Assembly: GCF_018131005.1 (NCBI RefSeq)
Contig: NZ_JAFCJK010000004.1
Span: forward strand, 496,001-560,000
Length of the DNA stretch: 64,000 bases
DNA from: Bradyrhizobium lablabi
Lineage (GTDB): Bacteria; Pseudomonadota; Alphaproteobacteria; Rhizobiales; Xanthobacteraceae
Direction: 5' to 3'
Shown here: positions 9,409-57,743 of the stretch, one piece after another
How the letters are laid out: every line of letters begins with the position of its first letter
Numbering within the stretch: the first letter of the stretch is position 1
Made by a program: the position numbers and the translations under genes
Notes under the pieces: generated by a model
What the model was told of the DNA's origin: nothing
Databases searched by the model: none
What the model saw: the letters and a program-made list of their open reading frames with translations, nothing else

Positions 9409-9417
9409 CGCGATTCC

Positions 9418-37350: not shown

Positions 37351-38304
37351 ATGGCCAAATACCGTCACGATCTGCCGCAACGCCATGGCGGCGCCTTCCT
37401 CACCGATGGGGGCTTGATTACGACGCTGATCTTTCAGGAGGGCATCGATCTGCCGCACCTCGCGGCGTTCGTATTGCTCGACTCCGAACGGGGACGCGAG
37501 CGTCTGACAAAATACTATGAATCCTATCTCGCTATTGCACGGCGTCACCGCGTTGGATTTGTGCTGAGTAGCCCGACCTGGCGGGCCAACCACGATTGGG
37601 CAGAGAAGCTTGGCTACGACGCTGCGGCGCTGGATGCGATCAACAGAGATTCCATCGCTTTTCTCGAAATTCTGCGTGGCAGGTGGGAGGCGACTTGTGA
37701 GCCCTCGCATTTGCCCTGTGTCATCAACGGATCGATCGGCCCGCGTGGCGACGGATACAAGGCGGGGCACATGGATGCGGAGGAGGCGGAAGCCTATCAT
37801 GGCGAGCAAATCGCTTCCTTCGTTGAGGGCGGGGCCGACATGGTGACGGCCTTCACAATTACCAACATCCATGAGGCCGTCGGCATCGCCCGTGCCGCCA
37901 AAAGACAGAGTATTCCGTGTGCGATTTCATTCACGGTGGAGACAGACGGACGCCTGGTGACAGGCGAGACACTGCGGCAGGCGATCGAAACCGTCGACCA
38001 CGAGACGAATGGAGCGCCGGAATATTTCATGATCAACTGTGCGCATCCGACGCACTTCGCGCAAACGCTCGACAGCAGGGCGGGGTGGACCAAGCGCATC
38101 TACGGCATCAGAGCCAATGCCTCGATACGAAGTCACGCCGAACTCAACGAGTCCGAAACGCTGGACTCCGGCAATCCGCAGGATCTTGGCCATCGCTATC
38201 GTAGCCTAAGAACGACGTTTCCGACGATGCGGATTCTTGGAGGTTGCTGCGGCACGGATCACCGTCACGTTGCAGCAATCGCGGCCGAGTGCCTGCCGGT
38301 TTGA
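37351..38304 (+). CDS. Homocysteine S-methyltransferase family protein
   Basis: A 317-residue TIM-barrel protein of the zinc-dependent homocysteine/selenocysteine methyltransferase family. It starts with LTDGGLITTLIFQEGIDLPHLAAF (compare the usual LDGG-MGT-L). The zinc cysteines are in FMINCAHPTHF (about 229) and LGGCCGTDHRHV (about 296-297), giving the C..CC triad. Length matches MmuM-type enzymes (about 310). Substrate could be S-methylmethionine or another methyl donor. It stands alone between two repeat-rich spacers and lacks a strong ribosome-binding site. Confidence 0.82.
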   Translation: MAKYRHDLPQRHGGAFLTDGGLITTLIFQEGIDLPHLAAFVLLDSERGRERLTKYYESYLAIARRHRVGFVLSSPTWRANHDWAEKLGYDAAALDAINRDSIAFLEILRGRWEATCEPSHLPCVINGSIGPRGDGYKAGHMDAEEAEAYHGEQIASFVEGGADMVTAFTITNIHEAVGIARAAKRQSIPCAISFTVETDGRLVTGETLRQAIETVDHETNGAPEYFMINCAHPTHFAQTLDSRAGWTKRIYGIRANASIRSHAELNESETLDSGNPQDLGHRYRSLRTTFPTMRILGGCCGTDHRHVAAIAAECLPV

Positions 38305-38369
38305 AAGCGCATCGACGTGGCGTGATGACCGCTTGCCGATCGCTCGTACTCGCCGGGATCCTCGATCAC

Positions 38370-38870
38370 TGATTTGCCCGACGCGGCAAGTCCTGGGGCG
38401 AGAAATATTCCGCTTCCGGATAGACCCAAATCAGCGGTTTAATCCGCCCGTCTCACCCGAATGAGGGGCGCTTCGCCATCGTCACGAGTGTTGGGTTGAG
38501 ATGCGGTGGACGCTGCGGCACACGAGGCGAACGTGCCAGGGCGGACGGCGAAGTCGTGTGGTTCTGGCGCCCCGATGCAGGTGTCAAGTTCGTGAGAAGC
38601 AAGCTTCTCACTGATGACGGTGACAACAAAGCTGGTCTCACCGGGAAGAGCGCGAAGTAAGCCGTAAACCATCGCGCAGGGAAAGCCGGGTTGATTCCGG
38701 TTACACCTGTGGTCCTACCCCCGTGCTTTTTGTTGCACGGGACCCATGGGTGCGATCGGCACCCGGCTTTCCCTGCGCCCTCAGCGAGAAAAGAGGGCGG
38801 ACAGCGATGCAAACCTCGGGTCCATCGTGCCGCGAGAAGGCGAAGCTGCGTCGAGAATGACCGACGGCAC
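38370..38870. repeat. Long dispersed Bradyrhizobium intergenic repeat with nested hairpins
   Basis: In minus-strand translation this region gives the phrase 'EGAGKAGCRSHPWVPCNKK', which recurs as spurious proteins in Bradyrhizobiaceae annotations. It contains GCGCAGGGAAAGCCGGG (38674-38690) and its exact complement at 38762-38778, enclosing a second hairpin CCCGTGC/GCACGGG (38720-38726, 38735-38741). It is not a gene; it may be a non-coding RNA or mobile repeat. The whole 38305-38945 spacer holds no other gene; the eutB promoter must lie downstream of the repeat. Confidence 0.6.
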
Positions 38871-38945
38871 CGAAAATCGAAAATTTACATCGCAATATCA
38901 ACTGCTTATGCTAATGGTCCCGCAGCCTCGCAGGCTTGAATTGCC

Positions 38946-40328
38946 ATGGTCTATCGCCGCAGCATCGATGCCACCTCTTACGTGTTCGCGGACCTGCGCG
39001 ACTTGCTCGCCAAGGCGACACCGCCGCGTTCCGGCGACCGGCTGGCCGGCATTGCGGCAGACAGCGCCGAGGAGATGATCGCGGCCCGCCTCGCGCTCGC
39101 CGACGTCCCGCTCACCCGATTCCTCAACGAGGCGGTGATCCCTTATGAGGACGACGAGGTCACCCGTCTGATCCTCGACAGCCATGATGCCGCGAGCTTT
39201 GCGCCGATCGCCTCGCTGACCGTCGGCGGCTTCCGCGACTGGCTGTTGTCGGATGCTGCGACCACCGACACACTGAAACAGGTGGCGCGCGGCATCACGC
39301 CGGAAATGGCGGCCGCGGTTTCCAAGTTGATGCGCAACCAGGACCTGATCCTGGTCGCGAGCAAATGCCGGGTGACGTCGCGCTTCCGCAACACCATCGG
39401 CCTGCGCGGGCGGATGAGCGCGCGGTTGCAGCCGAACCATCCTTTCGACGATGCGCGCGGCATTACAGCCTCGATCCTCGACGGGCTCCTGCTCGGGTCG
39501 GGTGACGCCTGCATCGGCATCAATCCGGCGAGTGACGATCCCAACGTGATCGGGACCCTGCTGCGGCTGCTCGACGACATCATCACGCGGCTGAAGATCC
39601 CGACGCAGGGCTGCGTGCTCACCCATGTCACGACCACGCTCGGCCTGATCGGGCAGGGGCTGCCGGTCGACCTCGTCTTCCAGTCGATCGCCGGCACCGA
39701 GGCGGCGAACCGCAGCTTCGGTGTCGACCTGGCGCTATTGAGCGAGGCGCGCGAGGCGGGCCTGTCGCTCCGCCGCGGCACGGTCGGCAGCAACGTGATG
39801 TATTTCGAGACGGGGCAGGGCTCGGCGCTGTCGGCCAGCGCGCATCACCAGGTCGACCAGCAGACCTGCGAGGCCCGCGCCTACGCGGTGGCCCGCGCCT
39901 TCGACCCGCTGCTCGTCAACAGCGTGGTCGGCTTCATCGGTCCCGAGTACCTCTACGACGGCAAGGAGATCATCCGTGCCGGGCTCGAGGATCATTTCTG
40001 CGGCAAATTGCTCGGCCTGCCGCTCGGTGTCGACGTCTGCTACACCAACCACGCCGAGGCCGACCAGGACGATATGGACAATCTGGCGACGCTGCTGGCG
40101 GCCGCCGGCGTCACCTTTATCATGGGGGTGCCGGGCGCTGACGACGTCATGCTGAACTACCAGTCGACCTCGTTCCACGACGCGCTCTATCTGCGCGACC
40201 TGTTCGGCCTGAAGCGGGCACCCGAATTCGACGACTGGCTGATGCGATCGGGCCTTGCGGACAAGGATTTCCGCCTTGCCGCCGATGCAGGGCTGCTGCC
40301 TGAATTCGCATCCAGGCTGCTCGCGTGA
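38946..40328 (+). CDS. eutB: Ethanolamine ammonia-lyase large subunit
   Basis: A 460-residue TIM-barrel subunit of the adenosylcobalamin-dependent lyase that splits ethanolamine to acetaldehyde and ammonia. Family features are an early YRRSIDATSYVFADLRDLLAKATPPRSGDRLAGI, NQDLILVASKCRVTSRFRNTIGLRGRMSARLQPNHP, SDDPNVIGTLLRLLDDII and the C-terminal 'CYTNHAEADQDDMDNLATLLAAAGVTFIMGVPGADDVMLNYQSTSFHD' active-site region. Length equals typical EutB (about 455). Its partner eutC is 1.7 kb downstream, after hpnP. No microcompartment genes are present, so acetaldehyde is probably handled in the cytoplasm. Confidence 0.95.
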   Translation: MVYRRSIDATSYVFADLRDLLAKATPPRSGDRLAGIAADSAEEMIAARLALADVPLTRFLNEAVIPYEDDEVTRLILDSHDAASFAPIASLTVGGFRDWLLSDAATTDTLKQVARGITPEMAAAVSKLMRNQDLILVASKCRVTSRFRNTIGLRGRMSARLQPNHPFDDARGITASILDGLLLGSGDACIGINPASDDPNVIGTLLRLLDDIITRLKIPTQGCVLTHVTTTLGLIGQGLPVDLVFQSIAGTEAANRSFGVDLALLSEAREAGLSLRRGTVGSNVMYFETGQGSALSASAHHQVDQQTCEARAYAVARAFDPLLVNSVVGFIGPEYLYDGKEIIRAGLEDHFCGKLLGLPLGVDVCYTNHAEADQDDMDNLATLLAAAGVTFIMGVPGADDVMLNYQSTSFHDALYLRDLFGLKRAPEFDDWLMRSGLADKDFRLAADAGLLPEFASRLLA

Positions 40329-40460
40329 GGGGGGAGACTGAACTTCTCGAGCAACCTTCGCGCTGTTGTGACGTTAGCAGATGCCACAATATTGAAGAAT
40401 TTCTGGCCCACGGATCAATGCCGTGCTTAGATTTGTTGGTGCTGCACTTGAGGGGGCTTG

Positions 40461-42047
40461 ATGAGAGCTGAGGGCATTGAGACGGCACGACGTATCCTCT
40501 GCGTCTTTCCGCGCTATACGTCGGCCTTTGGGACCTTTGAATATGCCTACCCCCTGACCGATGGTGTCAAGGCGTTCATGCCGCCGCAGGGCTTGCTGTT
40601 GATCGCGGCCTATCTGCCCGAGAACTGGGCGGTCCGCTTCGTCGACGAGAATCTGCGCGCCGCCTCCCAGGATGATTTCGAGTGGGCGGATGCCGTGTTC
40701 GTCAGCGGCATGCATATCCAGCGCCAGCAGATGAACGATATCTGCCGGCGCGCGCATGGCTATGACCTGCCGGTTGCGATCGGCGGCCCGTCGGTGAGCG
40801 CCTGCCCGGATTACTACCCCTCGTTCGACTACCTCCATGTCGGCGAACTCGGCGACGCCACCAACGAGCTGATCAAGCGCCTGGCTGAGGACACCAGGCG
40901 TCCGGACGAGCAGGTCGTCCTGAAGACCATCGACCGCCTGCCGATGACGGAATTCCCGCTGCCGGCCTATGAGCTCGCCGAGACTCGAAAATATTTCCTC
41001 GGCAGCATCCAGTTCTCCTCCGGCTGTCCCTATCAGTGCGAATTCTGCGACATCCCTGGGTTGTATGGCCGCAATCCGCGGCTGAAGTCGCCGCAGCAGA
41101 TCATCGCGGAGCTCGACAAGCTGCGTGAATGCGGCATGACCGATTCGATCTACTTCGTCGACGACAATTTCATCGGCAACCGCAAAGCCGCGGTCGAGTT
41201 GCTGCCGCATCTGATCGAGTGGCAGAAGCGCACCGGCTATGTCACGCGGCTCGCCTGCGAGGCTACGCTCAACATCGCCAAGCGGCCCGAGATCCTCGAG
41301 AAGATGCGCGAGGCCTTCTTCGCCACCATCTTCTGCGGCATCGAGACCCCCGATCCCGACGCGCTCAAGGCGATGCACAAGGACCACAACATGATGGTCC
41401 CGATCCTGGAGGGCGTGCGGACCATCAACTCCTACGGAATGGAGGTGGTCTCCGGCATCATCATGGGCCTCGATACCGACAAGCCCGAGACCGGCAACGC
41501 GCTGCTCTCTTTCATCGACGATTCGCGCATTCCGCTTCTGACCATCAACCTGCTGCAGGCGCTGCCGAAGACGCCGCTGTGGGATCGCCTTGAAAAGCAG
41601 GGTCGGCTGGTCGAGGACGAGGGCCGCGATTCCAACGTGCAATTCCTCTTGCCTTACGAAGACGTCGTCAACTCCTGGCGCAAATGCATGGAGGTCGCCT
41701 ACCAGCCCGACAAGCTTTTCGCGCGCTACCAGTATCAATGCGACTACACCTACGCCAACCGCATCAAGGTGCCGGTTAGTCCGGAGATGAAATCCTGGCG
41801 CAATATCAGGCGCGGCCTGATCATGCTCCGCAATATCTTCTGGAAAGTCGGCGTGCTCGGCGACTACAGGCGCGCGTTCTGGAAATTCGCGCTGGGACGG
41901 CTCAAGCGCGGCGATATCGAGGGCCTGATCTCGGCATCGATGATCGCGCATCATCTGATCACGTTCGCGCGTGCGGCTTCCAGCGGGCAGCAGAACGCCT
42001 CGAACTATTCGATCCGGCTGCGCGAGGCCGCGGTCCCGGCCGAATAG
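40461..42047 (+). CDS. hpnP: Hopanoid C-2 methylase, B12-binding radical SAM
   Basis: A 528-residue radical SAM enzyme that methylates hopanoids at C-2. The cobalamin-binding N-terminal domain (about 10-150: [78 protein letters not shown]) is followed by the radical SAM domain with the [4Fe-4S] cysteines C189, C193 and C196 in [20 protein letters not shown]. The C-terminal DUF4070-like region runs to the end. The start is the ATG at 40461 preceded by AGGGGG; a TTG one codon earlier is possible. It lies between eutB and eutC, 133 and 8 bases away, an insertion that suggests shared cobalamin supply or regulation. Identity is from close agreement with remembered R. palustris HpnP; HpnJ-like relatives are the main alternative. 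Confidence 0.85.
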
Positions 42048-42054
42048 GCGCAGC

Positions 42055-42846
42055 ATGAGGCCTCCGGTGCCGCCGTCCCGTTCGCTCGCAGAGTTGCGGG
42101 CGCTGACGCCGGCGCGGGTCTCGCTCGGTCGCTGCGGCGCCAGTCTGCCGACCACGGCGCTGTTGTCCTTTACGCTCGACCATGCGCGCGCCCGCGATGC
42201 CGTCCACGCCGCATTCGATGTCGCAGGCATCGTGGCCGGGCTTGCCGGCCTCGGAATCGCGCCGGTCGGGGTGTCGAGCCAGGCGCGCAACCGGCGCGAC
42301 TATCTGCGGCGTCCCGATCTCGGACGCATGCTCGATTCCGAATCGAAGCGCATGCTGGAGGGCAGGGGTGGCGCGCCGTGCCCATGTGCGATCGTCATCG
42401 GCGATGGCCTGTCGCCGACGGCGGTGAACGTCCATGCGGTCGAACTCGTCCGCCACCTCATGCCGCGACTCGCCGCGGACAAGATCGAGACCGGTGCGGT
42501 GGTCGTCGCCTCGGGCGCCCGCGTCGCGCTTGGCGACGAGATCGGCACCATCATCGGTGCGCGCATGCTGGTGATGCTGATCGGCGAGCGTCCCGGCCTG
42601 TCGGCGCCCGATAGTCTCGGCGCCTATCTTACCTTCGGGCCGCGAATCGGGCTGACTGATGCCGAGCGCAACTGCATCTCCAACGTCCACCGCGCGGGCC
42701 TGAGCTATGAGGAGGCTGCACTCAGGATTTCCTGGCTTGTGCGCGAAGGCCTGTCTCGCGGGATGACAGGAGTTGCACTGAAAGATGATAGTAGCGGCGG
42801 ATCACTTCCGCGCGCGTTGTCGGAGTGTGACAAATCAGATACTTAG
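42055..42846 (+). CDS. eutC: Ethanolamine ammonia-lyase small subunit
   Basis: A 263-residue small subunit. It shows [38 protein letters not shown] (about 15-52), the '[20 protein letters not shown]' block, and the cobalamin-binding region '[23 protein letters not shown]' and '[33 protein letters not shown]'. It starts 8 bases after hpnP on the same strand, so it is translated from the same transcript. The subunit completes the EutBC lyase. Confidence 0.93.
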
Positions 42847-43042
42847 CGACCGCTTCTGGCGGTTCCGTACCTGCTTGACGTGGCTCTCGCGCTTGCGAGC
42901 AGAGGCTTCGACCTGTAAAACCGGCGCCGGTCAATATTCGCGTGTTTTCAAGGGCTAGCGCTGATCCTACGTGCTCAACGGCCTCAGTCGCGATCGGGAC
43001 CCAAGCTAGAAAGATTGAGCCGTTTTCAGAACAGGACAGGGC

Positions 43043-45421
43043 ATGCTCGAAAAGAACTCCGAAAGTCAGGTTCACGTCGAGAAGATCGAAGAGCCGCGGC
43101 CGGGGACCAGCATTGCATTCGGGCTCGAGCGGCTCGGCCTGATCCCGATGCGGGCGCCGATTCTGTCCTGCATCATCCTGGTCGTCCTGATGATCGCTGC
43201 CGTTTTCGGCGTCGAGCGGATCAAGATCGACGATTCGCTGTCCCAGCTGTTCCGCTCCAATTCCAAGGATTACAAGCAATACGAGGCTGTCACCAAGCGC
43301 TTCCCCGCGACCGAGTTCGACGTTCTCGTCGTCGTCGAAGGCAAGACGCTGCTTGCCCGCGACAATCTCGTGAAGCTGCGCGACATGGTTACCGACCTGC
43401 AACTCGTCGAGGGCGTGCGCGGCCTTGTCTCGCTGTTCTCGGCGCGCCAGGCGCCGGAGCCCGGCAAGCTGCCGGCGGCGTTGTTTCCGCCTGAACTCCC
43501 CGAGGGCGAGGCCTACAGCAAGTTTGTCGAGACCGTCAAAAGCAACGAGATCATCCGCGGCAAGCTGTTGTCGGAGGACGGTACGCTTGCGCTGATCGTG
43601 CTGTCGCTCGAGCCCGAGGTGGTCGGCAGCAACAAACTCGGCAAGGTGGTCGGCGACATCAGGAAGATCATGGCCGACGATCTCGGCGGTAGCGGGCTCA
43701 ATGCCCAGCTCTCCGGCGTGCCGGTGATGCAGCTCGAGATCCGTAACGCGGTCGAGCGCGACGGGTTGACCTACAACATCCTCGGCATCCTCGCCGGCTG
43801 CATCATCGCCATCGTCTTTTTCCGCAAGATTTCCTTCATGGTGGCGGCTGCCTTCCCGCCGATGATCGCGATCCTGCTCGCGCTCGGCGGCCTCGGCTGG
43901 GCCAATTTCAATCTTAATATGTTCCTCAACGTGATGACGCCGCTCATCATGGTGATCAGCTTCTCCGACTCGATGCAGCTCACCTTCGCTGCGCGCGACC
44001 GGCTGATCGCCGGGCAGGACAAGTTCACCGCGTTCAAGAACGCGGTGCTGGTGGTCGGGCCGGCCTGCGTGCTGACCCACGGCACCGCAGGCATTTCCTT
44101 CATCGCCTTGCAGTTCTCGGATTCCGATTTGATCCGCAAGTTCGGCGAGGCGGGACTCGCCGCCACCATCATCGCGCTGATCGCGGTGTTGTCGCTGGTG
44201 CCCGTGTTCGGCGTGCTGTTCGTGCGCAACGAGAAGATCTTCGCAGTGAAATTTCAGAGCGCGGACGCCGGCGTGCAGGCGCTGCGCAATTTCTGCTACT
44301 GGATCGCCGTACGCATGGTGAGCCGTCCCGGGCTCTTCAGCCTGATCGCGGTCATCATCGTCGGCGGGCTCGGCATCATCTACGCCAATCTGGAGCCGCG
44401 TTACCGGCTCGCCGACCAGGTGCCGGACAAGCGCCAGGCCGTGGAGGCGTCGAGCCGTCTCGACGCCAAGCTGACCGGCGCCAATCCGATCGACGTGCTG
44501 ATCGAATTCCCCAAGGGGGCTTTGCTGTATTCGCCGGAGACGCTGAACACGATCGCCGATGTCCACGCGATGGTCGAGAAAGCTGCCGGCGTCGGCAATG
44601 TGTGGTCGCTGGAAACGCTGCGGCGCTGGCTCGCGGAGAAGGCCGGCACGACCGACGTCGAGACGCTGAAGCAGTATGTCAGCGTGATCCCCGAGCATCT
44701 GGTGCGGCGTTTCATCTCCAAGGAGCAGGATGCGGTGGTGGTATCCGGCCGCGTGCCTGATCTTGATTCCAGTCAGATCCTGCCCGTTATCGAGAAACTC
44801 GACCATGCGCTCGACAAGGTCCGCGCCGAGCATCCCGGCTACGAGATCGCGGTCACCGGACTCTCGGCGATCGCCGCGCGCAATAGCGCCAACATGATCG
44901 AGAAGCTCAACCGCGGCCTGACCGTCGAATTCGCGCTGGTCGCGATCTTCATCGGGCTCGCGTTCCGCTCGGTCGTGGTGATGTTCTCCTGCATCCTGCC
45001 CGGCATCTTCCCGGTGGTGCTGTCGGGCACTGTGCTGTGGCTGCTGGGGGAGGGGCTGCAATTTGCCAGCGTCGTGGCGCTGACGGTGTCGTTCGGCCTG
45101 GGCCTGAGCGCTACTATCCACTTTCTCAACCGCCTGCGGCTCGAGACCAAGCCCGGCGTCACGCCGGAACTCGCAGTGGAACGCGCCACCGTGCTGGTCG
45201 GTCCGGCGCTGATCCTGACCACGGTGGTCCTGGCCTGCGGCCTCGTCGTCACCGTGTTTTCCGACCTGCCGTCGCTGCGGCTGTTCGGCTGGCTCAGCGC
45301 GTTCTCGATGGTGGCCGCGCTGGTCGCCGACCTCTTCATCCTGCGGCCGACGTCGATGTTCCTGATCAACCTGTCGCAGAAAATTCGCGGCAGGGCAGGA
45401 CATCCGAAAGCGTTGGAATAG
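43043..45421 (+). CDS. RND/MMPL-family exporter
   Basis: A 792-residue inner-membrane protein of the RND superfamily with two repeats: helix 1 near 38-58, a large periplasmic loop (60-245), helices 2-6 (250-400); helix 7 near 428-448, second loop (450-620), helices 8-12 (625-775). Membrane blocks include 'LTYNILGILAGCIIAIVFFRK' and 'LTVEFALVAIFIGLAFRSVVVMFS'. It is related to HpnN but is a separate protein. Its position between eutC/hpnP and hpnC suggests a lipid (hopanoid) transport role; that is inference. A rho-independent terminator follows. Confidence 0.85.
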   Translation: MLEKNSESQVHVEKIEEPRPGTSIAFGLERLGLIPMRAPILSCIILVVLMIAAVFGVERIKIDDSLSQLFRSNSKDYKQYEAVTKRFPATEFDVLVVVEGKTLLARDNLVKLRDMVTDLQLVEGVRGLVSLFSARQAPEPGKLPAALFPPELPEGEAYSKFVETVKSNEIIRGKLLSEDGTLALIVLSLEPEVVGSNKLGKVVGDIRKIMADDLGGSGLNAQLSGVPVMQLEIRNAVERDGLTYNILGILAGCIIAIVFFRKISFMVAAAFPPMIAILLALGGLGWANFNLNMFLNVMTPLIMVISFSDSMQLTFAARDRLIAGQDKFTAFKNAVLVVGPACVLTHGTAGISFIALQFSDSDLIRKFGEAGLAATIIALIAVLSLVPVFGVLFVRNEKIFAVKFQSADAGVQALRNFCYWIAVRMVSRPGLFSLIAVIIVGGLGIIYANLEPRYRLADQVPDKRQAVEASSRLDAKLTGANPIDVLIEFPKGALLYSPETLNTIADVHAMVEKAAGVGNVWSLETLRRWLAEKAGTTDVETLKQYVSVIPEHLVRRFISKEQDAVVVSGRVPDLDSSQILPVIEKLDHALDKVRAEHPGYEIAVTGLSAIAARNSANMIEKLNRGLTVEFALVAIFIGLAFRSVVVMFSCILPGIFPVVLSGTVLWLLGEGLQFASVVALTVSFGLGLSATIHFLNRLRLETKPGVTPELAVERATVLVGPALILTTVVLACGLVVTVFSDLPSLRLFGWLSAFSMVAALVADLFILRPTSMFLINLSQKIRGRAGHPKALE

Positions 45422-46731: not shown

Positions 46732-47610
46732 ATGACCACCGCGAGCGACCTGCGATCAGGAAAGACCCACCGCGACGAGAATTTCCCGGTCGCGTCGTGG
46801 ATCATTCATCCACGACATCGTGCACTGATCCTGGCTTTCTATAATTTCGTCCGGACCGCCGACGATATCGCCGACCACTCGACGCTCCCCGCCGATGAGA
46901 AGCTGCGCTACCTCGACCTTCTCGAATCCGAATTGCTCGGTAACGGAGACACCGAGAAGGAAGCTGTCAGTCTGCGCCGTGCGCTCGCCGAACGCGGCAT
47001 GCCGCCGCGCCACGCGCTCGACCTCCTGGTCGCGTTCCGCATGGACGTTACCAAGCTGCGCTACGAGGACTGGGACGACTTGATCGATTATTGCCGCTAC
47101 TCGGCGATGCCGGTCGGGCGCTTCATGCTCGACGTGCATGGCGAGAGCACCTCGACCTGGATTGCCTCCGACGCGCTCTGCGCCGGCTTGCAGATCAACA
47201 ACCACCTCCAGGATTGCGCCAAGGACTACAAGAACCTGAACCGCGTCTATCTGCCGCGGGATGCTCTGGCCGCGTCGGGCGCGACCGTCGAGATGCTCGG
47301 CGAAACAAGCTCGCCGCCGCCGCTGCTGCAATGCCTGCGGGCGCTCGCCGCGCGCAATGAGACGCTGTTGAACGAGGGCAGGCCGCTCGCCGCGGAGGTG
47401 AGGGACTTCAGGTTCGGACTCGAGATCTCGGTGATTCAGGCCTTCGCCGACAGGATCGTCAACATGCTCAAGGTGCGCGATCCGCTCAGCGAGCGCGTCC
47501 ATCTGAGCCCGATCGAGTTGCTGCTGCGCAGCCTCGGCGGTGTCGCGAGCGAAGCCGCCCGCCGTGCGACGGGGCGGGGTTCGGTCTCCAAGACGGCGGC
47601 TGGCGCATGA
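46732..47610 (+). CDS. hpnC: Squalene synthesis protein HpnC (hydroxysqualene synthase)
   Basis: A 292-residue trans-prenyltransferase-fold protein. HpnC turns presqualene diphosphate, made by HpnD, into hydroxysqualene. Seen are the aspartate-rich motif in FYNFVRTADDIADH (about 44-57), the second motif in QINNHLQDCAKDYKNLNRVYLP (about 158-179) and YCRYSAMPVGRFMLDVHGE. ATG 46732 is chosen; a GTG 18 bases upstream is possible. The stop overlaps the start of hpnD (ATGA), so both are coupled. Confidence 0.92.
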   Translation: MTTASDLRSGKTHRDENFPVASWIIHPRHRALILAFYNFVRTADDIADHSTLPADEKLRYLDLLESELLGNGDTEKEAVSLRRALAERGMPPRHALDLLVAFRMDVTKLRYEDWDDLIDYCRYSAMPVGRFMLDVHGESTSTWIASDALCAGLQINNHLQDCAKDYKNLNRVYLPRDALAASGATVEMLGETSSPPPLLQCLRALAARNETLLNEGRPLAAEVRDFRFGLEISVIQAFADRIVNMLKVRDPLSERVHLSPIELLLRSLGGVASEAARRATGRGSVSKTAAGA

Positions 47611-48443
47611 GCCTCGAGACGACGGCCAACGCAGATTACGGGAACACCGCGTCCGGCAGCTCGTTCTACGCCGGCATGCGCATCCTGCCGCGCGCACAGC
47701 GCGAGGCGATGTTCCAGATCTACAGCTTCTGCCGCCAGGTTGACGACATTGCCGACTCCGACGGCCCGCGGCCGGAGCGGCTTGCCGCGCTGCAGCAGTG
47801 GCGCGACGATATCGATGCCCTCTATCAGGATCGCCCGCCAGCGCGCCTCAAGGATTACGTTGCCTCGGTGAAGACCTTCGGACTGAAGCGCGAGGATTTT
47901 CTCGCGATCGTCGACGGCATGGAGATGGATGTGCCGCAGGACATCCGCGCCCCCGACCTTGCGACACTCGATCTCTATTGCGATCGCGTGGCAAGCGCAG
48001 TCGGCCGGCTGTCGGTGCGGGTGTTCGGCCTGCCCGAGGAGGACGGCATCCTGCTCGCGCATCATCTCGGCCGCGCGCTGCAGCTCACCAACATTCTGCG
48101 CGATATTGATGAGGACGCAGCCCTCGGCCGTCTCTATCTGCCGCGCGAGTGGCTGTGGCACGCCGGCATCACCAATAACGATCCGGCGCGCGTCGTCGCA
48201 GAGCGCGCGTTGCCCAAGGTGTGCGCACCGCTCGTCGAGCGCGCCAAGATGCATTTCGCGAAGGCCGACGAGATCATGAAGCGCAATTCGCGTCGCGCGG
48301 TCCGTGCGCCGCGAATCATGTCGAAATACTACCGCATGATCCTCGATCTCCTGATCGCACGCGGATTCGCCGCGCCGCGCGCGCCGGTGCGCGTCTCCAA
48401 GGCCGCCAAGCTCGGCATTCTGCTTCGTTACGCGATCATCTGA
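47607..48443 (+). CDS. hpnD: Presqualene diphosphate synthase HpnD
   Basis: A 278-residue phytoene/squalene synthase relative that joins two farnesyl diphosphates to presqualene diphosphate. Marks: YAGMRILPRAQREAMFQIYSFCRQVDDIADSDG (first Asp motif, about 20-52), 'DLYCDRVASAVGRLSVRVFG', 'LGRALQLTNILRDIDEDAALGRLYLPREWL' (second Asp motif, about 150-180). Translation overlaps hpnC, and the stop overlaps hpnE. Confidence 0.94.
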   Translation: MSLETTANADYGNTASGSSFYAGMRILPRAQREAMFQIYSFCRQVDDIADSDGPRPERLAALQQWRDDIDALYQDRPPARLKDYVASVKTFGLKREDFLAIVDGMEMDVPQDIRAPDLATLDLYCDRVASAVGRLSVRVFGLPEEDGILLAHHLGRALQLTNILRDIDEDAALGRLYLPREWLWHAGITNNDPARVVAERALPKVCAPLVERAKMHFAKADEIMKRNSRRAVRAPRIMSKYYRMILDLLIARGFAAPRAPVRVSKAAKLGILLRYAII

Positions 48444-49693
48444 TGCAAAAGACTGTTCACATCATCGGCGCCGGCATTTCCGGCCTCTCGGCGGCCGTTC
48501 GGCTCGCCAGCGCCGAATACAAGGTGTTCGTGCACGAGGCGACGCAGCAGGCCGGCGGCCGCTGTCGCTCGTATTTCGACGCTGCCACCAACCTCACCAT
48601 TGATAACGGCAACCATCTCCTGCTGTCGGGCAACCACCATGCGCTGAGTTACGCACGCTCGATCGGAACGGAGGCCGGCCTGGTCGGGCCGAAGCGCGCG
48701 CAGTTTCCGTTTGTCGACCTCTCGACCGGCCAGCGCTGGCAACTCGATCTCGGCGATTCCCGCCTGCCGCTGTGGGTGTTCGACGAGGGGCGCCGTGTCC
48801 CCGACACGAGTCTGCGCGACTACCTGGCATTGGCGCCGCTGGTCTGGGCAAGCACCGAGACCCTCGTCGGCAAGGTGATCCCGTGCAAGGGCACGCTGTA
48901 TGATCGTCTGGTTCAACCGCTGTTGCTCGCGGCCCTCAATGTCGATCCGCCCGAGGGCTCGGCTGGACTCGCTGGCGCGATCGTGCGCGAGACGCTGCTC
49001 GCAGGCGGGCAGGCGTGCCGTCCGCTGATCGCGCGCGAAGGTTTGAGCTCGGTCCTGATCGAGCCGGCGGTGAAGCTGCTCTTGGAGCGCGGCAACAGCG
49101 TCCAGTTCGGCCACGAACTGCGCGCATTCGGCATGTCCGGCGACAGGGTCGCGCAGCTCGATTTCGGCGGTGACGACAGGGTCGCGCTGTCCGACGCCGA
49201 TACGGTGGTGCTCGCGGTACCGCCGCGCGCCGCCGCCTCGCTGCTGCCGGGGCTGACCACGCCGACCAAATTCCGCGCGATCGTGAACGCGCATTTCCGC
49301 GTCGATCCGCCGCGCGATGCGGCGCCCATTCTCGGTGTGGTCGGCGGCCTCGTGGAGTGGCTGTTCGCCTTCCCGCAGCGGCTGTCGGTGACGATCAGCA
49401 ATGGCGACCGCCTGGTCGACATGCCGCGCGAGGAACTTGCGCAGGCGATCTGGCACGACGTCCGCAAGGCATCGGGCGTTTCCGGCGACTTGCCGCCCTG
49501 GCAGCTCGTGCGCGAGCGCCGTGCCACTTTCGAGGCGACGCCGGAGCAGAACGCTCTGCGTCCAGGGCCCGCCACCGCGCAAAAAAACCTGTTTCTTGCC
49601 GGCGACTGGACTGCTACCGGGTTGCCAGCAACCATCGAGGGGTCGGTGCGGTCGGGTGACCGCGCCGCCGATCTGGTTCTTACCAGGCGCTAG
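48443..49693 (+). CDS. hpnE: Hydroxysqualene dehydroxylase HpnE
   Basis: A 416-residue FAD-dependent amine-oxidase-type enzyme that reduces hydroxysqualene to squalene. The N-terminal dinucleotide motif is TVHIIGAGISGLSAAVRLASAEYKVFVHEA (about 4-33) followed by GGRCRSY; the C-terminal FAD contact is NLFLAGDWTATGLPATIEGSVRSGDRAAD. The start ATG at 48443 overlaps the hpnD stop. HpnCDE together replace the single squalene synthase of other organisms. Confidence 0.93.
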   Translation: MQKTVHIIGAGISGLSAAVRLASAEYKVFVHEATQQAGGRCRSYFDAATNLTIDNGNHLLLSGNHHALSYARSIGTEAGLVGPKRAQFPFVDLSTGQRWQLDLGDSRLPLWVFDEGRRVPDTSLRDYLALAPLVWASTETLVGKVIPCKGTLYDRLVQPLLLAALNVDPPEGSAGLAGAIVRETLLAGGQACRPLIAREGLSSVLIEPAVKLLLERGNSVQFGHELRAFGMSGDRVAQLDFGGDDRVALSDADTVVLAVPPRAAASLLPGLTTPTKFRAIVNAHFRVDPPRDAAPILGVVGGLVEWLFAFPQRLSVTISNGDRLVDMPREELAQAIWHDVRKASGVSGDLPPWQLVRERRATFEATPEQNALRPGPATAQKNLFLAGDWTATGLPATIEGSVRSGDRAADLVLTRR

Positions 49694-49739
49694 ATTCGAC
49701 CCGTTGGAGCGGCCTCCGCTGTCGATCAGCCGGCCCGCG

Positions 49740-51722
49740 ATGAAGAGGATATTGAGCGACATGCTTTCGAGGGATCACAGCCTCGCAGTCGACCCGGTCG
49801 CGCTGGAGAAGAGCATCTCCAAGGCAACCGAAGCGCTGCTCGGCTATCGCCAATCCGACGGACATTGGGTGTTCGAGCTCGAGGCCGACAGCACCATTCC
49901 GGCCGAGTACGTCCTGCTGCGTCACTATCTCGGTGAGCCCGTGGATGCCGAGCTCGAAGCCAAAATCGCCAGCTATCTCCGTCGCGTGCAGGGGGCGCAT
50001 GGCGGCTGGCCGCAGGTGTACGATGGCCCGTTCGACATCAGCGCCAGCGTGAAGACGTACTTCGCTCTGAAGATGATCGGTGATTCCATCGATGCGCCGC
50101 ATATGGTGCGGGCGCGCGAGGCAATTCTTGCGTACGGCGGAGCGTCGCGCAGCAATGTGTTCACGCGCTTTCTGCTCGCGCTTTACGGTATCGTGACCTG
50201 GCGCGCGGTGCCGGTGCTTCCGGTCGAGATCATGCTGCTGCCGATGTGGTCGCCGTTCCACATCAACAAAATCTCCTACTGGGCGCGCACCACGATGATC
50301 CCGCTCATGGTGCTGGCAGCGTTGAAACCGCGCGCGAAGAATCCGAAGGGCGTCAGCATCAACGAACTATTCGTGCAGGATCCGAAGTCGCTCCGCATGG
50401 CCCCGAAGGCGTCGCATCAAAGCGCGAGCTGGTTCTATTTGTTTCGCGCCTTGGATGGCGTGCTGCGTGTGGTCGAGCCGATGTTCCCCAGGAGTCTGCG
50501 GCAGCGCGCGATCGACGCCGCGCTCGCCTTCATCGAGGAGCGGTTGAACGGCGAAGACGGCATGGGCGCGATCTATCCGCCGATGGCCAACATCGTCATG
50601 ATGTATGAGGCGCTCGGCAAGGATGAGAACTATCCGCCGCGCGCCAACACACGTCGCGGTCTCGACAGGCTGCTCGTGATCGGCGAACAGGAGGCTTATT
50701 GCCAGCCCTGCGTTTCGCCGGTGTGGGACACCGCGCTGACCTGCCACGCGCTGCATGAAGTGGGCGGCGACGAGGCCTTGGCCAGGATGAAGCAGGGGCT
50801 GGACTGGCTGAAGCCACGGCAGGTTCTGGAGCTGAAGGGCGACTGGGCGGTCAAGGCACCGAACGTTCGTCCAGGCGGTTGGGCGTTCCAGTACAACAAC
50901 GACCATTACCCCGATCTCGACGATACCGCCGTGGTGGTGATGGCGATGGATCGAACGCGCCGGCAGACCGGGACCAGGGAATACGACGCGGCGATCGCGC
51001 GTGGTCGCGAGTGGATCGAGGGCTTGCAGAGCCGTGACGGCGGCTGGGCTGCCTTCGACGCCAATAACCTCGAATACCACCTCAACAACATCCCGTTTTC
51101 GGATCACGGCGCGCTCCTCGACCCGCCGACCGAGGACGTCACCGCGCGCTGCATCTCGATGCTGGCCCAGCTCGGCGAGACCGAGAAGACCAGCAAGGCC
51201 CTTGCCGACGGTATCGCCTATCTGCGCCGCACCCAGCTCGCCGAGGGCTCCTGGTATGGCCGCTGGGGCCTGAACTACATCTACGGCACCTGGTCGGTGC
51301 TCTGTGCGCTAAATGTCGCAGGGGTCGATCATGGTGACCCGATGATTCGGAAGGCCGTCGGCTGGCTGGTATCGATCCAGAATCAGGACGGCGGCTGGGG
51401 CGAGGACGCGGTGAGCTACCGCCTCGATTACAAGGGCTATGAGCGCGCGCCGTCGACCCCCTCCCAGACGGCATGGGCCTTGCTTGGGCTGATGGCGGTC
51501 GGAGAGGTGGAAAACCCGGCCGTGACACGGGGCATGGAGTACCTAAAGGCCACACAGACGGAAAAAGGGCTGTGGGATGAGGAGCGTTACACCGCTACGG
51601 GGTTTCCGCGGGTGTTTTACTTGCGATATCATGGTTACTCAAAATTCTTTCCGCTCTGGGCGATGGCGCGGTATCGAAATTTGAGAAGCACCAACAGCAG
51701 GGTGGTAGGGGTCGGGATGTGA
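49740..51722 (+). CDS. shc: Squalene-hopene cyclase
   Basis: A 660-residue membrane-associated class II triterpene cyclase that turns squalene to hopene/hopanol. The catalytic DxDD is D392-L-D-D in YPDLDDTAV. QW repeats are visible (QSRDGGWAAFDAN, QNQDGGWGEDA, QTEKGLWDEERYT, GDWAVKAPNVRPGGWAFQ). The aromatic-rich end FYLRYHGYSKFFPLWAMARY is typical. ATG 49740 is the preferred start; ATG 49761 is possible. It lies 46 bases after hpnE and overlaps hpnG by 4 bases. Confidence 0.96.
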   Translation: MKRILSDMLSRDHSLAVDPVALEKSISKATEALLGYRQSDGHWVFELEADSTIPAEYVLLRHYLGEPVDAELEAKIASYLRRVQGAHGGWPQVYDGPFDISASVKTYFALKMIGDSIDAPHMVRAREAILAYGGASRSNVFTRFLLALYGIVTWRAVPVLPVEIMLLPMWSPFHINKISYWARTTMIPLMVLAALKPRAKNPKGVSINELFVQDPKSLRMAPKASHQSASWFYLFRALDGVLRVVEPMFPRSLRQRAIDAALAFIEERLNGEDGMGAIYPPMANIVMMYEALGKDENYPPRANTRRGLDRLLVIGEQEAYCQPCVSPVWDTALTCHALHEVGGDEALARMKQGLDWLKPRQVLELKGDWAVKAPNVRPGGWAFQYNNDHYPDLDDTAVVVMAMDRTRRQTGTREYDAAIARGREWIEGLQSRDGGWAAFDANNLEYHLNNIPFSDHGALLDPPTEDVTARCISMLAQLGETEKTSKALADGIAYLRRTQLAEGSWYGRWGLNYIYGTWSVLCALNVAGVDHGDPMIRKAVGWLVSIQNQDGGWGEDAVSYRLDYKGYERAPSTPSQTAWALLGLMAVGEVENPAVTRGMEYLKATQTEKGLWDEERYTATGFPRVFYLRYHGYSKFFPLWAMARYRNLRSTNSRVVGVGM

Positions 51723-52453
51723 TTTTGGGGGCGGGGGCCGCCGAGACCGTGGGCAACAGAATCGATCCTCGGCCGGTATTGATTGTGACTGGACTGGTCC
51801 AGGAGGCCCGCATCGCGGCTGGGCCCGGCATGATCGTCATCTGCAGTTCCAGCGATCCGCAGCAGCTTCGTGCGCTGCTGGCGACGCTCGACCCGACGAC
51901 GTTCCGCGGCGTGATTTCGTTTGGCGTGGCCGGCGGGCTCGATCCGTCGCTCAAATCGGGCGACGTCGTGGTCGCGACCGAGGTGACGGCGGGCGATACC
52001 CGTTTCCTGGCTGCATCCGCGCTGAACGAGGAGATGATCGCCAGCGCGGCGCTCAGGCGGCGCAGGATCGTCCGCGGCCGGCTCGCCGGCGTGGAGCAGG
52101 TGGTCGCGGCGAGAGCCTGCAAGGCCGCGCTGCGCTCGTTGACGGGGGCCGCAGCCGTCGACATGGAGAGCCACATCGCTGCGGGCTATGCCGCCAATGC
52201 GGGCATCCCCTTCGCCGCGCTGCGCGTGATCAGCGATCCCGCCGATCGGGCGCTGCCGGAACTCGCGAAGTCGGCGGTCAAGCCGAATGGCGATATTGAC
52301 CTCGGCAAGGTGATGCGAGGGGTCGTCCGCAATCCCCTTACGCTGCGCGCCCTGGTCTCAACCGGCATCGACTTCAACCGCGCACTGCGCTCGCTGCGCG
52401 GTTGCCGCGGTTTCCTGCTCGGCAGCGACGCGCTGGTTCCGGCCGAGATCTGA
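51719..52453 (+). CDS. hpnG: Hopanoid phosphorylase/nucleosidase HpnG
   Basis: A 244-residue protein of the purine nucleoside phosphorylase family that removes adenine from adenosylhopane on the way to ribosylhopane. Marks: PVLIVTGLVQEARIAAG (about 19-35), 'GVISFGVAGGLDPSLKSGDVVVATEV' (about 64-89), and the substrate-binding 'AAAVDMESHIAAGYAANAGIPFAALRVISDPAD' (about 144-176). The start overlaps the shc stop. Confidence 0.9.
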   Translation: MILGAGAAETVGNRIDPRPVLIVTGLVQEARIAAGPGMIVICSSSDPQQLRALLATLDPTTFRGVISFGVAGGLDPSLKSGDVVVATEVTAGDTRFLAASALNEEMIASAALRRRRIVRGRLAGVEQVVAARACKAALRSLTGAAAVDMESHIAAGYAANAGIPFAALRVISDPADRALPELAKSAVKPNGDIDLGKVMRGVVRNPLTLRALVSTGIDFNRALRSLRGCRGFLLGSDALVPAEI

Positions 52454-54687: not shown

Positions 54688-55127
54688 CGAACGTTCACTA
54701 CGCAAAGTGCACCATTTTCATTCAACGTACGGCCATTTGGCGCCGCACTTCATCGGGCCGGACATCCGCAACGCGAGCTGCAATATCCGCACCACGCCGG
54801 TCCCTGCACTCAACGGAAGCCCCAAGCGCTATGGAAGGACAGGGGTTTGTGGCAAAAAATAAGCGCCGAGGAAAGATCCGCCAGCCTGAGAAAGGCTATT
54901 TACGGTATTATAGTATGCTCAATGGGCGCGAGCCCCTCACTTGTTCGTCACTTTATTGCCCATTGAGGCGGTCTATACCGACGACTCGCGGCCGTTTTCC
55001 TGTTGTTTGGTTCCTCGTCGGCAATCTGCCGCACACACTAACCAAAACAACATTAGATCGGCTGCGGGAACTCCGCTAGACAGCGGGCGTTTTCGGCCAT
55101 GCTTCCCTAAGATTAGAAAGATACCAA
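54688..55127. promoter_or_regulatory. ispH/hpnN divergent intergenic region
   Basis: The 440-base spacer is AT-richer than its surroundings (TATTTACGGTATTATAGTAT near 54897-54916) and contains the inverted repeat CTCAATGGGC (54918-54927) / GCCCATTGAG (54958-54967). It probably holds promoters for both ispH-hpnH and hpnN. Short frames here (for example 54831-55079) have no supporting features. Confidence 0.5.
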
Positions 55128-57743
55128 GTGCTGACAAATATTGTTGTCTCGGTTGTCAGGACGTGTACGCGCTTTGCCCTTCCTGTCGTGCTTTTTTCCT
55201 TGATCCTGGCGGTTGGGGCCGGCTTCTACGCGGCCCGCAATTTCGCGATCAACACTGACATCAACAAGCTGATCTCGCCCGATCTGGATTGGCGCAAGCG
55301 CGACAACCAGTTCGAGCAGGCGTTCGACCGTGAACGGCTGATCCTGGCGGTGGTCGAGGCGCCGACGCCCGAGCTGACCAGTTCAGCGGCGAGGGCGCTC
55401 GCAGAAAAGCTGTCCGAAGACAAGACGAACTTCGAGTCGGTGACGCCACTTGGCTCCGGCGAGTTCTTCGAAAGAAACGGTCTTCTGTTTCTGCCGACCG
55501 ACGAGGTCGCCAAGGTGACTGGCCAGCTCGCATCGGCTGCGCCCCTGATCGAGATCATGGCCGGCGACCCCTCGATTCGCGGCCTCACCGGTGCGCTCGA
55601 AACCGGCCTTGCCGGCATAAAGCGCGGGCAGGTGAAGCTCGACAATGCCGCGCGTCCCTTCAACCAGATCGCCGAAACAGTCGAGACCATCCTGGCCAAG
55701 GGCAACGCGACGTTCTCGTGGCGCGAGCTGACCAGCGAAACGCCGCTGACGGACTCCGACAAGCGCGCCTTCATCGAGGTCAAGCCGATCATCGACTATT
55801 CCGCGCTGGAGCCGGGGAAGTCTGCGACCGACGCGATCCGACAGGCGGCCGCCGACCTGAAATTCCCTGCCGAATATGGCGCGCGGGTCCGCCTGACCGG
55901 GCCGGTTCCGATCGCCAATGAGGAATACGCGACCGTGCAGGACGGCGCGATCAGGAACGGCATAGGCACGGTGCTGATCGTGCTTGTCATCCTCTGGATG
56001 GCGCTGCATTCCGGCAAGATCATCTTCGCGGTGTTCCTGAACCTGTTCATCGGTCTTGCCATCACCACGGCCGTCGGTCTGATGATGGTGGGTTCGCTGA
56101 ACCTGCTCTCGATCGCGTTCGCCGTGCTGTTCGTCGGCCTCGGCGTCGACTTTGGCATCCAGTTCAGCGTGCGCTACCGCTCCGAGCGGTTCAAGAATGA
56201 CAACCTGACGCTGGCGCTCGAGAACGCGGCGCGCCGTTCGGCGGTGCCGCTATCGCTCGCGGCGATGGCCACTGCGGCGGGCTTCCTCTGTTTCCTGCCG
56301 ACCGACTACAAGGGCATCTCCGAGCTGGGCAAGATTGCCGGCGCCGGCATGCTGGTGGCCTTCGTCACCAGCATCACGGTGCTGCCGGCGTTGCTCGACC
56401 TGCTCAATCCGCCCGGCGAGAAGGAGCCGGTCGGCTATGCCTTCCTCGCGCCGGTCGACGACTTCCTCGAAAAGCACCGCATTGCGATCATCGTCGGAAC
56501 GCTGCTCGTCACGGTCGCGGGCCTGCCGTTGCTTCACTTCATGAAGTTCGACTTCAACCCGATAAACCTGCGCAATTCCAAGGTGGAATCGATCGCGACG
56601 TTCCTCGATCTCAGAAAGGATCCGAACACCGGGGCCAACGCCATCAACGTGATGACCAACTCGGAGGCCGACGCCAGGAAGATCGAGGCGAAGCTCGAGA
56701 AGTTGCCCGAAGTGCTGCGGGTGATGTCGCTCGACAGTTTCGTGCCCCAAGACCAGCCGGCCAAGCTCAAGCTGATCGCGCAGGCGGCGAAGGTGCTCGG
56801 TCCGGCGCTCAATCCCGATTCGGTCGATCCGGCACCGTCGGACCAGGAGAATGTCGAGTCGCTGAAGAGCTCGGTCGAGAACCTGCGCAAGACTGCGGGC
56901 GACGGCAAGGGGCCGGGCGCAATTGCGGCGCGCCGGCTTGCCGATGCGCTGCAGAAGCTCGCCGACTCGAACCAGGCGATCCGCGACAAGGCGCAGGCGA
57001 TCTTCATCGCGCCCATGAAGATCGTGTTCGACCAGCTCAAGAATTCGCTGCAGGCCCAGACCATCACGTTGCAAACGCTGCCGCCGGAACTGGTGGAAGG
57101 CTGGAAGGCGCAGGACGGCCTGATGCGGGTCGAGGTGCTGCCGAAGGGCGATCCCAACGACAACGACAATCTGCGCCGTTTCGCCGACGCAGTGCTCGCC
57201 GCCGAACCGACCGCGATCGGCGGGCCGGTCTCGATCCTCAAGTCCGGTGACGTTGTGGTGAGGGCTTTCATCCACGCCGGCATCTGGGCGCTGGTCGTGA
57301 TCAGCCTGTTGCTGTGGCTGACACTGCGGCGGGTCACCGACGTGTTGATGACGCTGGTTCCGCTTCTGGTCGCGGGCATCGTCACGCTGGAGATTTGCGT
57401 GCTGATCGGCCTGCCGCTCAACTTCGCCAATATCGTCGCGTTGCCGCTGCTGCTCGGCGTCGGCGTCGCCTTCAAGATCTACTACGTCACCGCGTGGCGG
57501 CAGGGCAGGACCAACCTGCTGCAATCGAGCCTGACGCGCGCGATCTTTTTCAGCGCGCTGACTACAGCGACGGCGTTCGGCAGCCTGTGGCTGTCAAGTC
57601 ATCCCGGCACCGCGAGCATGGGCAAGCTGCTTGCGCTGTCGCTCGGGACCACGCTCGCGGCTGTGTTGCTGTTCCAGCCCGCGCTAATGGGCAAACCGCG
57701 CAATGTCGGGAAGGAGACAGATATCTCCAACGACGTCACCTGA
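55128..57743 (+). CDS. hpnN: Hopanoid transporter HpnN (RND family)
   Basis: An 871-residue inner-membrane RND protein that carries hopanoids toward the outer membrane. Helix 1 lies near 10-30; large periplasmic loops span about 35-280 and 460-700; the helix bundles are 'IRNGIGTVLIVLVILWMAL', 'IIFAVFLNLFIGLAITTAVGLMMVG' and the second set from 'HAGIWALVVISLLLWL' on. The start is the GTG at 55128. The gene is divergent from ispH, and its last 60 bases overlap the end of the convergent DUF2147 gene. Confidence 0.93.
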   Translation: MLTNIVVSVVRTCTRFALPVVLFSLILAVGAGFYAARNFAINTDINKLISPDLDWRKRDNQFEQAFDRERLILAVVEAPTPELTSSAARALAEKLSEDKTNFESVTPLGSGEFFERNGLLFLPTDEVAKVTGQLASAAPLIEIMAGDPSIRGLTGALETGLAGIKRGQVKLDNAARPFNQIAETVETILAKGNATFSWRELTSETPLTDSDKRAFIEVKPIIDYSALEPGKSATDAIRQAAADLKFPAEYGARVRLTGPVPIANEEYATVQDGAIRNGIGTVLIVLVILWMALHSGKIIFAVFLNLFIGLAITTAVGLMMVGSLNLLSIAFAVLFVGLGVDFGIQFSVRYRSERFKNDNLTLALENAARRSAVPLSLAAMATAAGFLCFLPTDYKGISELGKIAGAGMLVAFVTSITVLPALLDLLNPPGEKEPVGYAFLAPVDDFLEKHRIAIIVGTLLVTVAGLPLLHFMKFDFNPINLRNSKVESIATFLDLRKDPNTGANAINVMTNSEADARKIEAKLEKLPEVLRVMSLDSFVPQDQPAKLKLIAQAAKVLGPALNPDSVDPAPSDQENVESLKSSVENLRKTAGDGKGPGAIAARRLADALQKLADSNQAIRDKAQAIFIAPMKIVFDQLKNSLQAQTITLQTLPPELVEGWKAQDGLMRVEVLPKGDPNDNDNLRRFADAVLAAEPTAIGGPVSILKSGDVVVRAFIHAGIWALVVISLLLWLTLRRVTDVLMTLVPLLVAGIVTLEICVLIGLPLNFANIVALPLLLGVGVAFKIYYVTAWRQGRTNLLQSSLTRAIFFSALTTATAFGSLWLSSHPGTASMGKLLALSLGTTLAAVLLFQPALMGKPRNVGKETDISNDVT

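Follow-up and report, generated by a model that had tools for sequence, protein, structure and literature searches.

Ethanolamine ammonia-lyase is a B12-dependent enzyme, and in proteobacteria its large and small subunits are encoded by eutB-eutC pairs that lie on one strand, eutB before eutC, sometimes with a gene for the ethanolamine permease Eat. The biological meaning of 2-methylhopanes, which are used as fossil biomarkers, is a matter of debate, and expression of the hopanoid C-2 methylase HpnP is reportedly regulated by EcfG in Rhodopseudomonas palustris TIE-1, in work attributed to Kulkarni et al. in 2013. The hopanoid clusters described from Alphaproteobacteria carry hpnC, hpnD, hpnE, shc, and hpnG in that order with hpnN nearby (PMC12583986), and one recent survey states that hpnP and hpnR as a rule do not lie together with other hopanoid genes (PMC12583986), and another that the genes for squalene cyclase and HpnP show no synteny (PMC10697835). 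Here we describe a locus in a 64,000-nucleotide stretch of Bradyrhizobium lablabi DNA (NCBI RefSeq assembly GCF_018131005.1, contig NZ_JAFCJK010000004.1, positions 496,001 to 560,000 of the forward strand; the whole stretch is hereafter the window), in which eutB, hpnP, and eutC share a strand and make up the left edge of a hopanoid cluster. The locus resembles the proteobacterial pairs in holding both subunits on one strand, B then C, and differs from them in that hpnP parts the subunits and the genome has no Eat protein over the model cut-off.

The reading that we favour, with rather better than even confidence, is an old and probably singly arisen operon merger in which a predicted stress promoter of hpnP drives eutC; what the two functions share is probably transcription rather than chemistry. 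A preliminary description of this DNA had placed hpnP between eutB and eutC, which is confirmed, and eight bases before eutC, where we count seven from the hpnP stop codon to the eutC ATG. The gap between eutB and hpnP measures 129 to 132 bases, depending on the hpnP start codon. The unit comprises:

38946 to 40328, plus strand: eutB, ethanolamine ammonia-lyase large subunit, 460 amino acids (NF011649, PF06751, alignment with 2qez)
40329 to 40457, plus strand: eutB-hpnP gap with conserved blocks (alignment of 81 regions 5' of hpnP)
40351 to 40375, plus strand: promoter-like site of EcfG (general stress response) type, GCAAC-N16-CGTT (pattern match)
40458 (TTG) or 40461 (ATG) to 42047, plus strand: hpnP, probable hopanoid C-2 methylase, B12-binding radical SAM protein (PF02310, PF04055, PF13282; hopanoid cluster)
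42055 to 42846, plus strand: eutC, ethanolamine ammonia-lyase small subunit, 263 amino acids (NF003971, PF05985; solved light chains)

Identity and integrity of the three proteins

The product of eutB matches PF06751 (711.6 bits) and NF011649 (702.3 bits against a cut-off of 554), with residues 2-449 aligning to the solved heavy chain 2qez, and that of eutC matches NF003971 (303.2 bits, cut-off 230) and PF05985 (292.6 bits), and aligns with solved light chains. Common to EutB and 2qez are SARLQPNHP, the NP after the GDA stretch, VMYFETGQGS, and DVCYTNH, which we take to be active-site stretches. Median ratios of non-synonymous to synonymous substitution (dN/dS) over 13 loci are 0.139 for EutB (78 pairs), 0.15 for HpnP, and 0.230 for EutC (55 of 78 pairs usable, 23 giving no usable value); with such low values in EutB and EutC, the two genes are under purifying selection and are not decaying in general.

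The middle protein exceeds the cut-offs for PF02310 (B12-binding, 34.1 bits), PF04055 (Radical_SAM, 62.7 bits), and PF13282 (DUF4070, 119.5 bits), and its translation contains the CxxxCxxC motif of the radical SAM cluster. None of the NCBIfam models names it HpnP, and the HpnR model, with a cut-off of 650, gives it 54 bits. It is 80–86% identical to proteins of same-genus genomes, 82–91% identical to those of 80 loci from named genomes, 54–86% identical to the top match in each of 125 further family genomes, and 57% identical to a Methylobacterium bullatum record that carries no annotation there. One survey defines HpnP by about 55% or more similarity to the R. palustris TIE-1 protein (PMC12583986), and another gives published HpnP the same three domains as the window protein, a trio also present in HpnP-like proteins (PMC10697835). 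By its domains, its place in the hopanoid cluster, and its relatives, rather than by a named R. palustris protein, the middle gene is very likely hpnP. This agrees with its preliminary description as a B12-binding radical SAM enzyme, and the paralogue of another kind that the same description allowed for is unlikely. Two further homologues encoded on different contigs of the genome share 39% and 27% identity with the window protein. The 39% homologue (positions 8695-10380 of locus L097, contig C3) is probably an HpnP-like protein.

Distribution of the eutB-hpnP-eutC order

In the scan of named genomes, for which the best 80 of 312 confirmed HpnP stretches were kept (74 of the 80 titled Bradyrhizobium), eutB lies directly 5' and eutC directly 3' of hpnP in 78 of the 80 loci. 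One exception, L006, is a contig that ends 83 bases past hpnP. The other, L028 from Bradyrhizobium sp. BRP22, has an intact hpnP between remnants, with matches to EutB residues 304-333 (E 9e-7) and, weakly, 444-460 (E 0.13) on the 5' side, and to EutC residues 206-244 and 252-263 (E 2e-9) on the 3' side; on these matches, hpnP was retained in L028 while the greater part of both eut genes disappeared.

Among 248 genomes of the family, HpnP was found in 126 and EutC in 137, with 77 genomes holding both, 49 only HpnP, and 60 only EutC. Where both occur, the two are adjacent (on one strand and within 600 bases) in 56 genomes, apart in 9, and on different contigs in 12, a second HpnP fragment in G354 and a second EutC fragment in G292 being omitted from the count. 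The 56 adjacent genomes span eight genera; adjacency holds in 17 of 17 genomes of the window's genus, counting that of the window, and among HpnP genomes in 16 of 16 in g123, 14 of 16 in g125, 2 of 2 in both g104 and g115, and 1 of 1 in g143, and in only 2 of 9 in g118 and 2 of 15 in g122. An EutB at least 78% identical to the window copy occurs in 57 genomes, namely the 56 adjacent ones and G414, in which the gene sits 630 bases from the end of a contig, and the remaining 84 EutB places are 62–76% identical to it. The dependence is one-sided: HpnP is often found without the adjacency (70 of 126 genomes), and EutB of the linked type almost always with it (56 of 57). On the eutB side the linkage is looser in some genomes, since EutB lies on a different contig from HpnP-EutC in G398 and about 1.7 kb 5' of hpnP in G381.

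Outside the linked lineage EutC lies directly 3' of EutB in 83 of the 84 places, with profile gaps of 39–174 bases, and the remaining place (G335) is 46 bases from a contig end, in keeping with the earlier statement that eutB and eutC are normally adjacent. The EutC list used here left out the linked-lineage places and the G292 fragment, together with G200, G216:C6, G247:C1, G256:C1:1482777, G309:C168, and G366:C50. Two side observations concern these more distant proteins. A distant EutB type (62–63% identical) is accompanied by its own EutC on one contig in G222, G307, G381, G415, and G423, and EutC-family matches of about 170 bits lie within open frames of 734–798 amino acids (G216:C6, G247:C1:576185, G256:C1:1482777, and G366:C50), which are perhaps fused EutB-EutC or other multidomain proteins. 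In an order-wide search HpnP was present in 13 of 199 genomes, six of which (that of the window among them) belong to the window's genus, and no eut genes were found near HpnP in the three contexts read among the seven others.

Evolutionary history of the unit

Trees built from the window, 15 of the 80 named loci, and 60 fetched regions comprised 55 HpnP and 48 EutB rows. In the EutB tree all 27 hpnP-linked rows form one clade (27 of 27; Shimodaira-Hasegawa-like approximate likelihood ratio, SH-aLRT, 99), and on the HpnP tree the linked label requires six changes, four of them forced by starred branches. One EutB clade together with six changes on the HpnP tree fits a single gain with repeated losses, and judging from these topologies the split of eutB and eutC probably arose once. 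We propose that hpnP entered a eutB-eutC junction next to the hopanoid cluster in a common ancestor of Bradyrhizobium and seven or more sister genera; eutB and eutC would then have been lost several times, with hpnP kept. Loci of the unlinked kind include those of g108, g110, g132, and others, where hpnP lies without eut or hopanoid genes in the stretches read, and those of g118, g137, one g125 genome, g142, g106, and part of g122, where it lies by a resistance-nodulation-division (RND) transporter gene or hpnC, with no eut in the stretches read.

An alternative is that eutB-hpnP-eutC is a neutral passenger, a frozen accident of no regulatory meaning whose order is kept by shared ancestry, and the single EutB clade and the repeated absence of eutB and eutC beside hpnP count in favour of this, as does the wide hpnP-eutC spacing in some other genera (110 nucleotides in L178, 297 in L190, and 363 in L182). 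Against it stand the spacing in Bradyrhizobium-type loci and the promoter-like site described below, which precedes hpnP in 10 of 11 linked loci of the family, and we regard it as unlikely. Taking the first ATG as the eutC start in the window and the 80 named loci, eutC begins -4 to +8 nucleotides from the hpnP stop codon in 67 of 76 measurable loci, as in coupled genes; the count omits L006 and L028, which have no usable EutC, and L005, L022, and L047, which have no ATG in the stretch. An earlier rule that took the start nearest to 8 nucleotides gave 71 of 78, and was dropped because it favours short gaps.

A stress-type promoter-like site upstream of hpnP

Alignment of 81 regions 5' of hpnP reveals the conserved blocks G.AAC...gTT and GcCACAAT.TTGA.gAAtTt, with no comparable block 5' of eutB in 76 aligned regions. 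The GCAAC-N16-CGTT at 40351 in the window, with its -10 box at 40372-40375, is a predicted promoter that agrees with the published EcfG-type motif in its GCAAC form; in Sphingopyxis the motif is GGAAC-N16-CGTT, the two commonest -35 boxes are GGAAC and GCAAC, and several -10 variants occur (PMC7083833). The block GcCACAAT.TTGA.gAAtTt lies at 40383-40402, just 3' of the promoter-like site, and probably belongs to the hpnP 5' leader. As in R. palustris TIE-1, where EcfG control is reported, the window hpnP has an EcfG-type promoter-like site 5' of it, whereas the -35 box in Bradyrhizobium is mostly GCAAC or GAAAC, not GGAAC.

Two initial GGAAC patterns, following the consensus, had no match in the Bradyrhizobium gaps and were replaced by a wider pattern with -35 and -10 variants resembling those of PMC7083833, regions before other genes serving as controls and loci with under 180 bases upstream being skipped. 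The relaxed site occurs within 200 bases 5' of hpnP in 73 of 80 loci, a partly circular count (1.8 expected from shuffles), and in the control regions before eutB in 1 of 77, eutC in 0 of 78, the RND gene in 0 of 78, and hpnC in 0 of 64. In 39 further HpnP loci, one of them of the window's genus, it is present within 200 bases in 23 (0.8 expected), usually with GGAAC, and within 300 bases in 10 of 11 eut-linked loci, in 12 of 12 that have hpnP next to the RND gene or hpnC and no eut, and in 3 of 16 elsewhere. The further loci and the control regions outweigh the 73 of 80 as evidence for the site. Since it is kept where hpnP lies without eut, the predicted site travels with hpnP rather than with eut, L028 being a counter-example. 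Furthermore, the same pattern matches GGAAC-N16-CATT before nepR of this genome, where an autoregulated site is expected. A scan of 38300-43100 for sigma-70 promoters (2 found, 0.9 expected) and terminators (2 found, 3.1 expected) was not used.

The general stress response, absent from the preliminary description, is on this sequence evidence the best regulatory lead. Within the eutB-hpnP gap hpnP would have its own EcfG-type promoter, and eutC would be read off the hpnP transcript, probably with translational coupling, such that hpnP and eutC would rise together under stress, with eutB read from further upstream. The short spacing between hpnP and eutC makes it probable that eutC depends on an hpnP-containing transcript, as first proposed, and of the separate promoters named at that time as grounds for doubt one half is found, in that hpnP has its own predicted promoter-like site inside the unit. 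A stricter variant, in which eutB answers to its own signal and active lyase is made only when EcfG drives hpnP-eutC, so that stress gates the enzyme through its small subunit, appears decidedly unlikely to us. If it were true, head-group salvage and hopanoid methylation would form one stress-membrane module.

Several points weigh against the merger and its proposed promoter. The EutB and HpnP trees were quick searches without bootstrap, some gene absences may reflect assembly gaps, and no intermediate with eutBC and without hpnP was found at a hopanoid-cluster border among the 21 of 84 unlinked contexts read. The direction of the event is our interpretation, since eutB and eutC could have arrived around hpnP rather than hpnP having been inserted between them. 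For the promoter, the form GGAAC-N18-TT, tried first, occurs in none of 80 eutB-hpnP gaps (the window and 79 loci), and the relaxed pattern was widened after the alignment had been seen, such that the resulting count is not blind. The strict site lies within 200 bases of hpnP in only 33 of 80 loci (0.5 expected), and the relaxed site is absent from 7 of the 80, among them L028, where eutB and eutC are lost, and also from the linked locus L178. Additionally, single matches prove little, as the relaxed pattern has 17 matches in the 64-kb window and one of the three strict GGAAC/GCAAC-N16-CGTT matches there (47641) lies inside hpnD. That the order is conserved in eight genera could in itself be taken as a sign of a selected functional link.

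Lipid turnover and cobalamin as alternative links

One such link would be lipid turnover, whereby stress remodels phosphatidylethanolamine, the lyase clears the freed ethanolamine, 2-methylhopanoids stiffen the membrane, and hpnP and eutC are co-expressed for that reason. The order conserved in eight genera, purifying selection on eutB and eutC, and a stress-type promoter-like site that serves hpnP and, judging from where it lies, eutC as well would all be consistent with it, and C-2 methylation is said to raise membrane rigidity in the title of PMC4337730. No protein of the genome matches the Eat model above its cut-off (EutH was not searched for), a result that would agree with ethanolamine of internal origin; at the unlinked locus L206 an Eat protein (606 bits, cut-off 382) lies directly 5' of eutB, the sole Eat among 10 neighbouring proteins scanned. 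Set against this, the adjacency is missing from 70 of the 126 genomes with HpnP, hpnP is intact in L028 although most of eutB and eutC on either side is gone, 81 of the 137 EutC genomes have no EutC beside HpnP, and no head-group-releasing lipase was found among the window proteins scanned, which make up part of the window. We consider lipid turnover quite unlikely as the explanation. A metabolic link is not needed, because hpnP often occurs without eutBC beside it, and with no shared pathway eutB and eutC could be lost while hpnP stays. Under the operon merger the placement would be held by transcription and history, not by a shared chemical pathway.

Control of both enzymes together by cobalamin supply seems highly improbable. 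The lyase is B12-dependent and HpnP has a B12-binding domain, and the forms of the cofactor that they use are expected to differ, adenosyl in the lyase and methyl in HpnP, which speaks against a common control. The conserved upstream element is promoter-like and lies before hpnP, not eutB. Experimental confirmation that HpnP depends on cobalamin, reported in PMC10697835, counts for such control. A cobalamin riboswitch at eutB-hpnP-eutC was rejected as a candidate, as an Rfam scan of the window gave no match, and at least four cobalamin riboswitches were found in the genome, all on other contigs (150 of 397 first-look candidates scored).

The preliminary description thus fares unevenly. Insertion of hpnP and the probable dependence of eutC on its transcript hold up, and the survey of gene order it proposed gave 78 of 80 named loci and adjacency in 56 of 77 family genomes with both proteins. 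Its B12-based co-regulation found no support in the riboswitch results, and its route from phospholipid head groups to hopanoids, as a required link, is weakened by the HpnP genomes without adjacency and by L028; either link is possible but unsupported.

The neighbouring hopanoid cluster

Downstream of eutC, the remaining features of the cluster are:

43043 to 45421, plus strand: RND transporter of MMPL/HAE3 type, under the HpnN cut-off (PF03176, 89.3 bits), a neighbour kept beside eutB-hpnP-eutC
46732 to 48443, plus strand: hpnC and hpnD (TIGR03464, 295.6 bits; TIGR03465, 342 bits)
48440 to 49693, plus strand: hpnE, start chosen by us (TIGR03467, 404.8 bits)
49683 to 51722, plus strand: shc, squalene-hopene cyclase, start chosen by us (TIGR01507, 757.5 bits)
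51719 to 52453, plus strand: hpnG (TIGR03468, 233.9 bits)
55067 to 55091, plus strand: EcfG-type promoter-like site GGAAC-N16-CGTT, 61 bases 5' of hpnN (pattern match)
55128 to 57743, plus strand: hpnN, hopanoid transporter (NF052374, 1371.9 bits)

With hpnC, hpnD, hpnE, shc, and hpnG in order and hpnN nearby, the cluster is like those described from Alphaproteobacteria, and unlike the account in PMC12583986 in that hpnP lies near the others, although definitions of synteny may differ. The end of hpnP is 7.6 kb from shc, with eutC and the RND gene between. Where at least 7.5 kb downstream could be read, hpnC and hpnD both lie 3' of hpnP in 64 of 72 named loci, and were not both found in the other 8 within the DNA stretch examined. 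Three g122 loci place hpnP at roughly 200 bases from hpnC and 3.2 kb from shc, and distances of about 3–8 kb between hpnP and shc are seen in the window, L162-L168, L180, and L187-L189. No hopanoid genes were found by unlinked EutB in the 21 contexts read of 84 places.

The RND gene lies 3' of hpnP, between eutC and hpnC, in 78 of the 80 named loci, and its product scores 156.3 bits with TIGR00921 (cut-off 351.9). It was rejected as HpnN (60.3 against a cut-off of 751.85), the true HpnN being encoded at 55128, and is a candidate second hopanoid-related transporter. Among loci L222-L241, a site like that at 55067-55091 starts 58–64 bases 5' of hpnN in all 16 from other genomes of the window's genus (N16, with N17 in L223), and in none of the four from g123 and g125. 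In the window's genus, hpnN may belong to the stress regulon too, judging by these matches.

Significance

No mention of the eutB-hpnP-eutC order was found in the literature searched, in a search of limited coverage, within which hopanoids and ethanolamine ammonia-lyase came together in a single paper, a Zymomonas metabolic model. Bradyrhizobium and Rhodopseudomonas are among the organisms in a published EutB/EutC tree, and the passages seen of that paper do not contain the term "radical SAM" (PMC3542024); an hpnP mutant of B. diazoefficiens is reported to have no phenotype in symbiosis with two hosts (PMC11005386). In many genomes hpnP lies a few kilobases from shc, a placement that, by the two recent surveys, was not observed or is unusual.

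The unit, which borders the hopanoid cluster on its left, would encode a B12-dependent ethanolamine ammonia-lyase and a hopanoid C-2 methylase. Conserved as it is, it links hpnP with a promoter-like site of stress type and with a second B12 enzyme, and genomes that differ in whether eutBC lies beside hpnP, one Bradyrhizobium among them, offer a natural comparison for a functional interaction between the two.

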